DNA of 34,230 nt from Nitrospirae bacterium RIFCSPLOWO2_02_FULL_62_14. Its GTDB lineage: Bacteria > Nitrospirota > Nitrospiria > Nitrospirales > Nitrospiraceae. The notes beneath the pieces are model-generated. The model did no database searches, had not been told where the DNA came from, and saw only the letters and a list, made by a program, of their open reading frames with translations. The position numbers were made by a program, and so were the translations under genes. Positions 3,159 to 28,732 of the stretch are shown in pieces. The DNA is taken from assembly GCA_001805245.1 (NCBI GenBank), contig MHEU01000003.1, positions 23,979-58,208 on the forward strand, read 5' to 3'. Numbering within the stretch: the stretch's first letter is position 1; each line of letters opens with the position of its first letter.

Positions 3159-3497
3159 ATGCCGGAATTGATGAAGTACGGACTCTATTTCCTGATCGGC
3201 GGGGTGGTCGTCAGTCTTTCAACCTATCTGGGCACGAAAGGCGAAGGGTTTCTGGCCGCATTGGCGAGTACGTTTCCGGCCATCACAGGCGTCACGTTCG
3301 TCCTGATCTATCTGAACGGCGGCTATGACGCCACATTGATTTACGCCAAGAATCTCCTCTGGTTCGTCCCGCCCTGGCTGGCCTATGTGGGATTTATGAT
3401 CGTCGCGCTGAATCATCTGGGATTCTGGGTCACGATGGCCGGCTCGCTGGCGGTCTACATGGGCTGCGTGGGCCTGCTTCGTCTGGCACTGCGCTAG
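3159..3497 (+). CDS. GlpM/DUF3147-like small integral membrane protein
   Basis: A 112-residue protein with about four membrane helices, starting MPELMKYGLYFLIGGVVVS. A strong AAGGAGG ribosome binding site lies 6-7 bases before the ATG. The helical pattern and the GG-VVSLSTYLGTKGEG-LAA loop resemble the GlpM/DUF3147 family, membrane proteins of poorly known function. The last 45 codons (from 3364) are repeated at 4214-4347 beyond the DUF4258/zinc-finger module, with seven base differences and one amino-acid change (Asn to Thr). So this gene's 3' end is either resident or was rebuilt by an insertion. The gene itself appears intact. Confidence 0.75.
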   Translation: MPELMKYGLYFLIGGVVVSLSTYLGTKGEGFLAALASTFPAITGVTFVLIYLNGGYDATLIYAKNLLWFVPPWLAYVGFMIVALNHLGFWVTMAGSLAVYMGCVGLLRLALR

Positions 3498-3499
3498 GC
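3364..3499 (+). repeat. Left copy of a 136-bp direct repeat (3' end of the GlpM-like gene)
   Basis: Positions 3364-3499 match 4214-4349 at a constant offset of 850 bp. Mismatches fall at 3389, 3392, 3395, 3407, 3412, 3413 and 3416, and the last 83 bp are identical. Five mismatches are third-position synonymous changes; two lie in one codon (AAT to ACC). Confidence 0.97.
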
Positions 3500-3536
3500 T
3501 GGGATAGCCCTAAAGATCAATAATTCTCAACTTGAA

Positions 3537-3565
3537 TTGGCTTTCTAAGAGGGGGCTGCTAAAAT
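3537..3565 (+). promoter_or_regulatory. Putative sigma70-type promoter of the DUF4258/zinc-finger module
   Basis: TTGGCT (3537-3542), a 17-bp spacer and TAAAAT (3560-3565), with TGC just before the -10. The region between the repeats is AT-richer than its surroundings. No good ribosome binding site precedes ATG 3613; a GGAGG lies about 24 nt upstream, too far to be typical. Confidence 0.5.
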
Positions 3566-3612
3566 AACGCCAGTTTGACATACGGAGGCCGAAGGGTTCC
3601 CGACCCGACCGA

Positions 3613-3936
3613 ATGAACATCGACGAGATACGCCGGAGTATTCAGCAAGGCTCATACACGATTTCATTCACTCATACTGAGAAGCTCCGACGACGAAAGA
3701 TCGAGCTGGCAGTGATCGAGGAGGCTGTTTCCAATGGTCAGATCATTGAGTCATACCCGGATGATCCAAGAGGACCGTCTTGTCTCATCCTCGGCTTTAC
3801 CAACACAAAGCGTCCTATTCACGTCGTCTGCGGGCATCTGGGGCGCGATCACATCTTGATCATCACGGCCTACGAGCCCGATCGCGAGGAATGGGAATCC
3901 GACTGGAAGACAAGAAAAGGGAAGAAGCAACCATGA
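3613..3936 (+). CDS. DUF4258 protein, putative toxin of a type II toxin-antitoxin pair
   Basis: A 107-residue basic protein. It has the DUF4258 layout: an N-terminal helix, a FTHTEKLRRRKIEL segment with a conserved His, a SCLILGF strand, then PIHVVCGHLGRDHILIITAYEP containing the family's His-Val-Val and Ile-Thr-Ala-Tyr core. DUF4258 proteins are small and often sit beside YgiT-type zinc-finger genes; they are predicted RelE/MqsR-like toxins, but the biochemistry is largely inferred. Here the stop overlaps the next ATG by 4 bp (ATGA at 3933-3936), which implies translational coupling with the zinc-finger partner. The module sits between duplicated gene ends, consistent with recent transfer. 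Confidence 0.75.
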   Translation: MNIDEIRRSIQQGSYTISFTHTEKLRRRKIELAVIEEAVSNGQIIESYPDDPRGPSCLILGFTNTKRPIHVVCGHLGRDHILIITAYEPDREEWESDWKTRKGKKQP

Positions 3937-4169
3937 TCACATCCTGCTATTTCTGCAAGGGAAAGGTCGTTGACCAGGTGACCAGCGTGGATTTTTGGTG
4001 GGGCGACGACTTGAAGATCATCGAAAACGTGCCGTCAGGAATCTGCCAGCAATGCGGCGAGAAATACTTCTCTCCCGACGTATACAAGGAAATGGAACGG
4101 CTGGCGAAGGGGCGCGGCCCTGCCGTTTCCCATCTCTCCGTGGATGTCCTGCGTTACTCACCCGTCTAA
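3933..4169 (+). CDS. YgiT-type (MqsA-like) zinc-finger protein, putative antitoxin
   Basis: A 78-residue protein. The start is ATG 3933, which overlaps the upstream stop; an in-frame upstream extension would run through the DUF4258 gene and is rejected. It has two Cys pairs, CYFC near residue 5 and CQQC near residue 37, spaced as in the zinc-binding N-terminal domain of MqsA/YgiT. Between them is [18 protein letters not shown], and after them [16 protein letters not shown]. The C-terminal helix-turn-helix of full MqsA is absent, so it probably neutralises its partner without a separate DNA-binding domain. The end ([12 protein letters not shown]) runs into the sequence before the duplicated GlpM fragment. 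Confidence 0.75.
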
Positions 4170-4213
4170 TCTGCTTCTGTACAGATCGCGTCTTCGGACC
4201 AGTCGCATTCTCA

Positions 4214-4347
4214 TCGTCCCGCCCTGGCTGGCCTATGTCGGCTTCATGATCGTCGCCCTGACCCACCTGGGATTCTGGGTCACGATGGCCGGCTCGCTGG
4301 CGGTCTACATGGGCTGCGTGGGCCTGCTTCGTCTGGCACTGCGCTAG
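4214..4347 (+). pseudogene. 3' fragment of a GlpM-like gene
   Basis: About 44 codons, from ...[15 protein letters not shown] to the stop, match the C-terminus of the GlpM-like protein at 3159-3497 apart from Thr for Asn. It has no start codon of its own; the open frame runs back to 4144 through the end of the zinc-finger gene without a recognisable domain. The mostly synonymous differences suggest this piece diverged while under selection as part of a working gene, and was then cut off from its 5' part. Confidence 0.85.
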
Positions 4348-4349
4348 GC
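4214..4349 (+). repeat. Right copy of the 136-bp direct repeat
   Basis: This is the partner of 3364-3499: 129 of 136 positions are identical, and both copies end two bases after the stop codon. The spacer between the two copies is 714 bp and holds the whole DUF4258/zinc-finger module. Confidence 0.97.
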
Positions 4350-4386
4350 ACCCTCCGGCATTCTCGCGACCGCCTGCCCAATCCGG

Positions 4387-4415
4387 TTGCGCCTGCATCA
4401 CCGGCTTGCTACGAT
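4387..4415 (+). promoter_or_regulatory. Putative promoter of uvrA
   Basis: TTGCGC (4387-4392), a 17-bp spacer and TACGAT (4410-4415) preceded by TGC (extended -10). The inferred transcript start near 4422 leaves a short leader before the GTG start codons. Confidence 0.5.
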
Positions 4416-4438
4416 GACAGACTTCCCTGTCTCGCGAG

Positions 4439-7267
4439 GTGCATCGCGTGCCCAACAATAGCAAGCCATCCCGTGAATCCGGCGACCTGATTGTCGAGGG
4501 CGCGCGGCAGAACAACCTCAAGAACATCTCCCTCCGCATCCCCCACAACAAAGTCACCGCCATCACCGGCGTGTCCGGTTCCGGCAAGTCGTCGCTGGCC
4601 TTCGACACGCTGTTTGCCGAGGGGCAGTGGCGCTATGTGGAATCGCTCTCGACCTACGCCCGCATGTTCCTCGAAAAGGTGGACCGCCCCGACGTGGACC
4701 GGCTGGTCAATGTGCGACCGGCAATCGCCATTGAACAGAAGAACCCGGTGCGCACGGCCCGCTCGACGGTCGGCACGGCCACAGAAATAGCCGACCTGCT
4801 GCGCCTGCTCTTTGCCAAGATCGGCAAACCGGTCTGTCCCGATTGCCGGCAGGAGGCGCGCGGCTACCATCCCGGGTCGGTCGCCGATGACCTGCTCGCC
4901 CGCTTTTCCGACGGGCGCGCGATGATCCTGTTTCCGGTGAAGGACCCCGGCCCCGGCCACGATCGCGCCATGGTCGACTCCCTGCTGACGCGCGGATTCG
5001 TGCGGTTGAAATGCGGCGACGACACGGTGGACCTGCACCCAAGCATGGCCCTGCCGAGAACGGCCGGTACGGACCTCCACGTCGTGTTGGACCGTCTGGT
5101 CATCCGTCCCGATAACCGCAACCGGATCATCGAAGCCATCGAGACCGCGTTTCGCGAAGGCGACGGCCTCTGCCGCGTGGAAGTCATCGGCCAGGGCCTC
5201 CACACCTACAGCACAAAGTTCCGCTGCCAGTCCTGCGGCAGAACCTTCGAACCGCTCCGGCCGATCCTGTTTTCCTTCAACCACCCGTTGGGCGCCTGCC
5301 CCGAATGCAAGGGCTTCGGAAACATCCTCAAGTACGACGAGGATCTCGTGATTCCCAACTGCAACCTGTCCCTGGCCGACGGCGCCGTCGAGCCCTGGAC
5401 CAAGCCCGGCACGGACTGGTGGCAGAAGCAGATGCTGCTGGCCATGAAACGGAAAGGCGTGGACCTCACCACGCCCTACGCCAAGCTGTCCGGGGAGGAA
5501 CGGGCGCTGATCTGGAAGGGCGATAAAAAATTCGACGGCATCGACGACTTTTTCAAACATCTCGAGCAGAAGCGTTACAAGCTGCACGTGCGGGTGTTCC
5601 TGAGCCGTTACCGCAGCCCTGTCCCCTGCCCGCTGTGCCACGGCAGCCGGCTCAAGCCGGACGCGCTCTTCGTGAAAGTCGCAGACCGCGACATTCATCA
5701 GATTGTCCATCTCACCATCCATGAGGCTGCCGGCTGGATCGAAGGGCTGCCCCTCTCGAAGTTCGAGGCCGAAGTGGCGCATGACATTCGCCGGCAGCTC
5801 CGCATGAAGCTGGGGTTCCTGCTTCGGGTGGGCCTGGGCTACCTCACCCTCGCCCGGCAGACGAAAACGCTCTCCGGAGGGGAGGCGCAGCGGATCACGC
5901 TGGCCAACCAGCTCGGGGCCAGGCTGGTCGGCACCCTCTACGTGCTGGATGAACCGACCATCGGCCTCCACGCACGAGACACCGCCACGCTGGCCGGCAT
6001 CCTGCGCGATCTGGCCGATAGCGGCAACACCGTCGTGGTGGTCGAGCACGACCGGCAGATGATCCAGGCCGCCGATTATGTGATCGAGATGGGACCGCGG
6101 TCCGGCGAACGCGGCGGCGAGGTGGTCTGCGCGGCGCCCTGCAGGCAATTTATCGCCGATCCGCGGTCGCTCACGGGCCGGTACCTTCGGGGCGAGGAGA
6201 CCATCGCCATCCCGCGCACGCGACGCTCCGGCAGCGGCAGGTTCCTCAGCCTGGCCGGAGCGCGCGAGCACAATTTAAAGGACCTCAACGTCCGGTTCCC
6301 CCTCGGCATGCTGATCTGCGTGACCGGGGTGTCGGGCTCGGGGAAAAGCACGCTCGTCGACGACACGCTCTACCGCGCGGCCGCGCGGGCCTTCCGCCTC
6401 AAATCCCTGCCGATGGGACGATTCACCGCCATCAAGGGGCTGGAGTACCTGAAATCGGTGCGGCTGATCGATCAGGAGCCGATCGGCCGGACGCCCCGCT
6501 CCAACCCGATCACCTACCTGAAAGCGTTCGACGACATCCGCGCATTGTTCGCCAACACACAGGGCGCGAGAACCGCCGGGCTGACGCCCGCCCACTTTTC
6601 CTTCAACACGCCGGGCGGCCGGTGCGAACGCTGCGAGGGCAACGGCTACGAAAAGCTGGAGATGTATTTCTTCGAGGACCTCTACGCCACCTGCGAAACC
6701 TGCGGCGGACGGCGGTTCGGCCAGTCCGTGCTGAACGTCCGGTACCGCGACAAAACGATTCACGAGGTGCTCGGCCTCACGGTGAACGAGGCGCTGACGT
6801 TTTTCTCGGGATCCACGAGGCTCGGCGAGAAGCTTCATCTATTAGCCTCGATCGGGCTGGGCTACCTTCGCCTCGGCCAGCCGGCCACCACCCTGTCCGG
6901 CGGCGAGGCGCAGCGCCTCAAAATCGCGGCGGAATTGAACACACGGGGACAGGCACCGGCCTCCGGCCGGAGCCAGTCCCCTGGCGTGCTCTATATCATG
7001 GACGAGCCGACGACGGGATTGCATCTGGACGACATTAAAAAACTGCTGGCCGTGCTCGGCAAACTGGTGGATACGGGCAACACGGTGGTCGTGGTCGAGC
7101 ACAACCTGGACATGATCAAGGCGGCCGACTGGATCATCGATTTGGGGCCGGAAGGCGGCGAACAGGGAGGCCGCCTTGTCGCCGAAGGACGGCCCGAGCA
7201 AGTCGCGCAGGTGGCGGAATCACATACGGGGAGGTTTCTGAAAGCAATGCTGGAAGAAAAGAGCTAA
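4439..7267 (+). CDS. uvrA: Excinuclease ABC subunit UvrA (divergent paralogue type)
   Basis: A 942-residue protein of full UvrA length: the damage-sensing ATPase of nucleotide excision repair, which loads UvrB. It has a Walker A motif GVSGSGKS (residues 44-51) and CPDC/CQSC/CPEC zinc-binding cysteines. The first ABC signature is LSGGEAQR with [10 protein letters not shown]; the second half has GVSGSGKS, a CERC/CETC zinc module, LSGGEAQR and MDEPTTGLH. The [10 protein letters not shown] and [19 protein letters not shown] segments differ from the usual UvrA wording, so a second, canonical UvrA may exist elsewhere. A 37-bp palindrome at 6945-6981 adds residues between the second signature and Walker B. 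GTG 4439 gives the longest frame; GTG 4448 with GAGG at 4435 is an equally good start. Confidence 0.92.
6945..6981 (+). repeat. REP-like palindrome embedded in the uvrA coding sequence
   Basis: A 37-nt imperfect palindrome starting ggggacaggcacc and ending gagccagtcccc. Base i pairs with base 38-i at 16 of 18 positions; the two symmetrical exceptions are A-A oppositions, and the loop is essentially the centre base. The ends match the style of REP-type palindromes seen in many environmental genomes. It is in frame and encodes part of a Gly/Ser/Pro-rich stretch (about residues 836-848). Confidence 0.7.
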
Positions 7268-21058: not shown

Positions 21059-21075
21059 CGGAGCACCTCCACACC

Positions 21076-21144
21076 GAACTTCGTTTGAGCCGCTCGCTCT
21101 TTATCGCTTTATCGAATATGGATGCGAGCGGAGAACCCCTCCAG
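21076..21144. repeat. Hairpin repeat in the UBact leader, shared with 28605-28664
   Basis: This copy reads cttcgtttgagccgctcgct, 26 nt of variable loop, then atgcgagcgga and cctccag. The stem CCGCTCGC (21090-21097) with GCGAGCGG (21124-21131) is perfect. The same ends and stem, with a shorter loop, occur at 28605-28664. Confidence 0.75.
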
Positions 21145-28454: not shown

Positions 28455-28732
28455 AGGATGTTCAAAAAAGCCGTCTTCTCACCCGCCCACCCCGCACGTT
28501 GTCGCACCCACCCACCCCGCGCCTGTCGAGACAGGCGCTTCTCCACGGGGACGCGTGCTTTTCCCGTGGCGGCCGCAGCAGCGAAAGACGAGGAGGTACA
28601 TACCAAGCTTCGCTTGAGCCGCTCGCTTCGATCAAATGCGAGCGGATAGTTACTTTGCCTCCAGTAGGCTACGCAGTACGTCGAGCCTTTGAGCGATGCG
28701 AGAACGCAGCTGGAGGCTTTTTTCAACATCCT
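28455..28732. mobile_element. 278-bp inverted-repeat-bounded, MITE/REP-composite-like element
   Basis: The ends are an 18-bp inverted repeat with one mismatch: 28455-28472 (aggatgttcaaaaaagcc) and 28715-28732 (ggcttttttcaacatcct). Inside are several strong stems: a 9-bp stem with 2-nt loop at 28519-28538, a ccacggg/cccgtgg stem at 28542-28567, and CCGCTCGC/GCGAGCGG at 28619-28645. No transposase or convincing gene lies inside. It fills almost the whole 310-bp gap between two pentaheme cytochrome genes. Confidence 0.6.
28605..28664. repeat. Second copy of the cttcg-ttgagccgctcgct hairpin repeat
   Basis: This copy matches 21076-21144 at both ends (cttcgcttgagccgctcgct, then atgcgagcgga and cctccag), with a shorter loop and a 15-nt rather than 7-nt right flank. 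The stem is perfect over 8 bp. Confidence 0.75.

Follow-up and report, generated by a model that had tools for sequence, protein, structure and literature searches.

A predicted toxin–antitoxin pair between direct repeats of a GlpM-like gene's 3′ end, and similar repeats around other toxin–antitoxin genes in Nitrospiraceae

Insertion with long target duplication (ILTD) has been described for Helicobacter restriction-modification genes, as the work of Nobusato et al. (2000) is recounted in later papers (PMC1643837, PMC3874152, PMC3031569). In E. coli, duplications of the lacZ end, 109–950 bp in length, arise by single crossovers (PMC3240628), and homology-facilitated illegitimate recombination has been invoked for the 3′ ends displaced in T6SS arrays (PMC5361080). 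A genomic island in another system is stabilised by a toxin–antitoxin (TA) module (PMC8978831). Finally, a 2025 survey (PMC11980606) places DUF4258 (PF14076) among the type II toxins with a BECR fold, in the RelE/ParE superfamily, and also describes DUF4258–MqsA fusions; a word search of that survey finds no mention of duplication or direct repeats. The literature that we searched, which lacked most subscription journals, contains no report of such insertions for TA modules.

The window, that is, the whole stretch of 34,230 nucleotides that was analysed, contains an intact gene for a GlpM-like membrane protein (ORF list, positions 3159–3497, plus strand, 112 aa), with orthologues upstream of uvrA across Nitrospiraceae; we propose that it is an insertion target. 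The GlpM-like label is a weak one: the match to NF006751, at 4.4e-6, lies far under the cut-off of that model, and the protein has no Pfam match. The last ~134 coding nucleotides of this gene recur 850 bp downstream. A repeat search delimits two direct copies of 136 nt (3364–3499 and 4214–4349, both on the plus strand; 95% identity, spacing 850), which form the longest repeat of the whole window. Copy A consists of the 3′ end of the intact gene and 2 nt past its stop codon, with less conserved letters at 3389–3416; copy B extends from codon 69 to the stop (nhmmer E about 4e-27). The two differ at seven positions (3389, 3392, 3395, 3407, 3412, 3413 and 3416), after which 83 bp (3417–3499) are identical; under random placement, the confinement of seven mismatches to 28 of 136 positions has P = 1.9e-4. 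Six of the seven are at third codon positions, and an adjacent pair of mismatches interchanges Asn (AAT) and Thr (ACC). The repeat search and mismatch listing reproduce what the first-pass annotation had read from the letters: the repeat coordinates, the seven mismatches, the identical tail, and a single two-base codon change among otherwise synonymous differences. Elsewhere in the window, a 38-nt direct repeat (79%) occupies 21061–21098 and 28590–28627, 7.5 kb apart.

The DNA between the copies opens with an AT-richer leader (3500–3612, plus strand) that carries a sigma-70-like site, TTGGCT-17-TAAAAT, at 3537–3565. Downstream lies a gene for a 107-aa DUF4258 protein (3613–3936, plus strand; PF14076, 2e-22), which overlaps by four bases a second gene (3933–4169, plus strand); the 78-aa product of the latter is a predicted YgiT/MqsA-type zinc-finger antitoxin (TIGR03831, 1.6e-14), and a protein 85% identical to it is encoded behind glpM in G014, a genome of another genus. 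The GC content is about 0.48–0.58 in the module, 0.60–0.68 in the DNA downstream, 0.63–0.70 in the RNase Z-like gene and 0.55–0.62 in glpM; the GC profile, promoter-like site and domain matches agree with the AT-richer promoter and the DUF4258/zinc-finger pair first described. We predict that the DUF4258 protein is a BECR-fold (RelE/ParE superfamily) toxin: the best PDB matches of its AF2 model (pLDDT 76) include TA toxins, BrnT and MqsR (E 0.01 at best). A PDB sequence search with the DUF4258 profile yielded no TA toxin; its hits were short or weak and fell on designed and unrelated proteins. The PADLOC library contains no match for either module protein or for GlpM. The DUF4258/MqsA type II TA family is recognised by a DUF4258 domain protein adjoining an MqsA/YgiT-type antitoxin; this arrangement is found here, with the toxin gene first, and the pair is a predicted type II TA module. 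According to the ORF list and domain searches, these are the sole genes between the copies and the module contains no integrase, which agrees with the original description of an 850-bp unit without one. There is no tRNA within the window.

Gene order around this site is conserved: a CAAX protease gene, an RNase Z-like gene, the GlpM-like gene and uvrA, which is represented in the window by a uvrA-like gene (4439–7267, plus strand; ORF list) that forms the conserved right flank. Module-free relatives with a single-copy target, which the insertion proposal had called for, do exist: in G007 (GlpM identity 83%) the glpM stop codon is followed by about 73 bp and then by uvrA, and other loci likewise have spacers of less than 300 bp. 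In the window, the spacer that follows copy B (4350–4438, plus strand) is homologous, by eye, to the native glpM–uvrA spacers of G001 and G007, and a direct joining of 3363 to 4214 restores an intact 112-codon gene. The empty site, the homologous spacer on the copy B side and the intact joined reading frame all support insertion, as the first-pass annotation had proposed. The RNase Z-like gene upstream of glpM in G007 (L036 2184–2377) has shrunk to about 25 recognisable codons.

Because copy B is joined to the native spacer, it looks like the displaced original end of glpM. The 28-nt divergent tract points in the same direction, since copy B is there the nearer of the two to relatives: it matches G007 at 24 positions against 18 for copy A, and G013 at 22 against 18, with marginal differences for G032 (20 against 19) and G001 (25 against 24). 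On these few sites, clear in two genomes and marginal in the other two, copy A looks like an imported end. The contig of G001 (CR_Sed_300A_bin.52, a genome of the same genus; L033/L139) breaks off within the glpM 3′ repeat region, repeats being where assemblies tend to stop, and may hold a second glpM 3′ copy at its end.

Among 137 distinct Nitrospiraceae glpM loci, uvrA is in reach in 115; the gap between the two genes measures less than 300 bp in 25 loci and 0.7–12.4 kb in 90. We searched both strands with a nucleotide profile built from the final 171 nt of glpM and identified 3′ remnants (E <= 0.0011) in seven loci (the window, G021, G013, G062, which has two, G064, G079 and G087), every one in direct orientation. 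A profile of the 5′ half of glpM matched only where continuous with two of these remnants, a profile of the upstream sequence had no match in the glpM–uvrA loci, and the glpM tail profile found nothing significant downstream of uvrA. All seven remnant-bearing loci contain TA genes, of at least five TA families; the pairs that lie between intact glpM and remnant, or beside the remnant, include HEPN-nucleotidyltransferase, Phd-ParE, DUF433-DUF5615, HepT-nucleotidyltransferase and VapBC. In G079, S2bin.17, G087 and G082, a single common junction follows the same Phd-ParE pair and the remnant is deleted to different extents, as expected of a single old insertion. In G014, VapBC is situated beside glpM, followed by a truncated DUF4258 gene with the zinc-finger gene mentioned above, and then by a weak glpM-like remnant: as we read this gene order, it shows stacking, in which a newer module would have displaced an older one. 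The glpM–uvrA gap in Nitrospiraceae is an insertion hotspot.

Several features of individual gaps are also of interest. G062 and G064 (L140, L141) have 10-kb intervals with a displaced glpM copy that starts from about codon 31 and is frameshifted near codon 72; as both genomes share the displaced copy and the frameshift, the insertion is probably older than their split. In G021, a MITE-like insert of ~210 bp with inverted CATTATTCATGA-like ends (L142 9124–9336) splits the displaced glpM 3′ end. A minus-strand gene, arylamine N-acetyltransferase-like by eye, is present in many of the gaps (an ORF cluster in 35 loci), so the gap collects other genes too.

The genome that contains the window is in 76 contigs, and the contig of the sister genome ends inside the repeat; such facts might point to an artefact in the assembly of metagenome-derived genomes. 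We consider this extremely improbable: the copies can be told apart at seven sites, each has its own unique flanks, and the same pattern is found in the single-contig genomes G013 and G079.

We also looked for spanning repeats, defined as at least 40 bp long, with E <= 1e-4 and within 1.5 kb, around DUF4258 and ParE genes that were defined by Pfam and drawn from across the family, using GNAT (acetyltransferase) genes and random positions as controls; Pfam-defined baits were used because our first TA baits, which came from remnant-bearing loci, would have made the argument circular. In this sample, which comprises top-scoring loci of one family, includes many draft MAGs and pools loci that partly share ancestry, spanning repeats occurred around 8 of 30 DUF4258 genes and 12 of 30 ParE genes, against none of 30 GNAT genes and 16 of 600 random positions, some of the latter being TA loci (Fisher p = 8e-5 and 1.5e-13 for TA genes against the two controls, respectively). 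Merging by hand those orthologous sites that we recognised left 17 of 57 (p = 2.8e-4). About one third of the TA genes sampled thus have a spanning repeat and about two thirds do not; the signal is weaker (4/29) when the ParE genes come from the order's other families. Close relatives of the window's own pair are flanked by direct repeats at 5 of 15 other sites. A search around the DUF4258 gene on contig C29 of the window's genome found no direct repeats.

Wherever the neighbouring gene could be recognised, the repeat is an end of that gene, which is itself whole (this reading excludes L255, L257, L265, L268, L286, L303, L320 and L323). Both polarities are represented: 3′ ends are repeated for atpC, a HEAT-repeat gene, purQ and a T2SS ATPase gene, and 5′ ends for eno, aat and an FAD oxidase gene. 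At other DUF4258/zinc-finger sites the repeat is 48–324 bp long, as against 136 bp in the window. One of these sites is in the window's own genome (L388, G000:C55, 1631–5046), where gatB and eno are separated by a second DUF4258/zinc-finger pair, and a 97%-identical copy of the first 24 codons of eno lies beyond that pair. The gatB–eno arrangement is common to G021 and G008, in two other genera (L389, L390); the eno copies are 97, 89 and 92% alike within genomes, versus 81–87% between genomes.

These data bear on two alternative accounts. The first, which corresponds to the 'island tactic' invoked in the first-pass annotation, is that a tyrosine or serine recombinase, supplied in trans, integrated the module site-specifically at an attachment core in the gene end. 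The repeated use of the glpM 3′ end in many genomes would suit it, as would the phage-type integrases elsewhere in the window's genome and the fact that several remnants start at about codon 84–86, where identity also begins in the window. However, the duplicated segments start at varying codons (about 31, 61–69 and 85), and the homology reaches well upstream of any core, to about codon 31 in G062 and G064 and to codon 69 in the window, as an att reaction would not do; moreover, the target genes are unrelated, some are duplicated at their 5′ ends, and the module is without an integrase. The variable duplication starts and unrelated targets argue against a constant att core, and by eye the target ends have no core motif in common. 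That part of the earlier proposal is not supported, and we regard site-specific integration as unlikely. In the second account, a tandem duplication of the glpM end came first, and a separate, unrelated event later placed the TA pair between the copies. Bacteria commonly acquire tandem duplications, and no special donor would be required. Against this, not one TA-free glpM locus among the 137 had its 3′ end in duplicate; the remnant that comes closest to standing alone, at +55 in G062, has a junction that matches the Phd-ParE insertion of relatives, and the repeats associate with TA genes rather than with GNAT genes or random positions. This sequence of events seems to us decidedly unlikely, even a shade more so than a recombinase acting in trans.

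The divergence of the repeat copies is informative as to their origin. Over 16 comparisons, pooled mismatches at first, second and third codon positions number 42, 30 and 101 (third-position excess, p = 1.3e-11 versus one third). For copies that were identical at birth, with the displaced one drifting freely, our own estimate of the third-position share is 0.44; the observed share of 0.58 exceeds this (p = 1e-4, for pooled loci that are not fully independent), with G021 and G013 among the comparisons that lack the bias. From this excess, much of the divergence seems older than the joining, which favours a donor allele that was imported with the module: the copies probably diverged largely as working alleles before they were joined. 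The first-pass annotation had suggested that the second copy came from a diverged but working homologue; the third-position bias supports such a homologue, and the roles are reversed, the downstream copy looking native and the upstream end imported.

A further account that must be weighed here is a transposition-like insertion with long target duplication, in which an unknown machinery copies roughly 50–330 bp of the target, so that the two copies are identical at birth and later diverge or stay similar through gene conversion. It has the anatomy reported for restriction-modification systems, namely variable long duplications, an addiction-type cargo and no integrase (PMC1643837, PMC3874152, PMC3031569), it is compatible with targets that are gene ends of either polarity, and the eno copies are most alike within one genome. 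The likeness of the eno copies fits gene conversion, and also repeated insertion; gene conversion between copies is likely to have blurred their history. What counts against target copying is the third-position excess above that expected for identical copies under neutral decay, together with the displaced remnant in G079, which resembles the glpM of another species (91%) more than the glpM of its own genome (85%). We consider target copying possible but doubtful.

We hypothesize instead, with a probability of roughly 0.55, that the best explanation is RecA-type recombination of a fragment composed of a gene end and TA genes, and its retention by TA addiction. A small foreign fragment, on which a type II TA pair accompanied the 3′ end of a glpM homologue, would enter the cell; a ComEC-type competence gene is present in the window's genome. 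Homologous (RecA-type) recombination inside glpM would then join the fragment to the resident gene, and the full-length gene would thereafter end in donor sequence; the left side of the insert is continuous with glpM. The right junction lies inside glpM, at a codon that varies between loci: here the other end of the fragment would be joined within resident glpM (at about codon 69) by illegitimate end-joining or, alternatively, a circularised fragment would enter by one crossover. The original 3′ end would be pushed downstream as a remnant, with no host gene broken. Loss would be punished by the TA pair, as a repeat-mediated deletion would remove the antitoxin, and the insert would persist until the remnant decays. 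We infer the RecA-type entry, the donor, the route in, and the part of addiction in keeping repeats around TA inserts. We found no donor whose glpM end is of the A type; the tract of 83 identical base pairs needs either a donor nearly identical in that segment or later gene conversion.

How chromosomal TA modules move without a visible mobile element is a long-standing question, and our analysis suggests that homologous recombination and addiction may suffice. As deletion is easy between direct repeats but would be penalised by a TA pair, the model predicts why TA genes in particular sit between repeats that are otherwise prone to deletion. With an intact gene on one side of the module and a surplus end of that gene on the other, the footprint can be used to locate insertions, to date them and to count them. 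More tentatively, and at less than even odds, the TA modules of Nitrospiraceae may be integrase-free cassettes that carry a homologous gene end, recombine, regenerate the gene, become addiction-locked, and stack as an array with decaying gene-end spacers.

The window's pair resembles the DUF4258–MqsA type II TA modules of the 2025 survey (PMC11980606) in its DUF4258 toxin and MqsA/YgiT-type antitoxin; its toxin gene comes first, whereas that survey lists the order as antitoxin/toxin and the activity as unknown. The locus is like Vibrio cholerae T6SS effector/immunity arrays (PMC5361080) in that a new module is placed beside a conserved anchor while older modules and 3′ ends are pushed downstream; in those arrays it is the variable effector itself that is displaced, whereas here an unrelated resident gene stays whole and only its end is displaced. 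With gene-end-targeting integrative islands it shares insertion at a gene end, a restored coding sequence and a displaced old end; unlike them, it has no integrase, measures about 850 bp, and belongs to a set of insertions with no fixed core, variable length, and both 5′ and 3′ ends as targets. With ILTD, as far as the later papers describe it, the resemblance is one of anatomy: both involve short addiction-type units without an integrase, long and variable direct duplications, and empty sites in relatives. The inserted genes here form type II TA pairs from several families rather than restriction-modification systems, and the copies appear to have diverged before they were joined, an indication of recombination with a donor allele and not of target copying.
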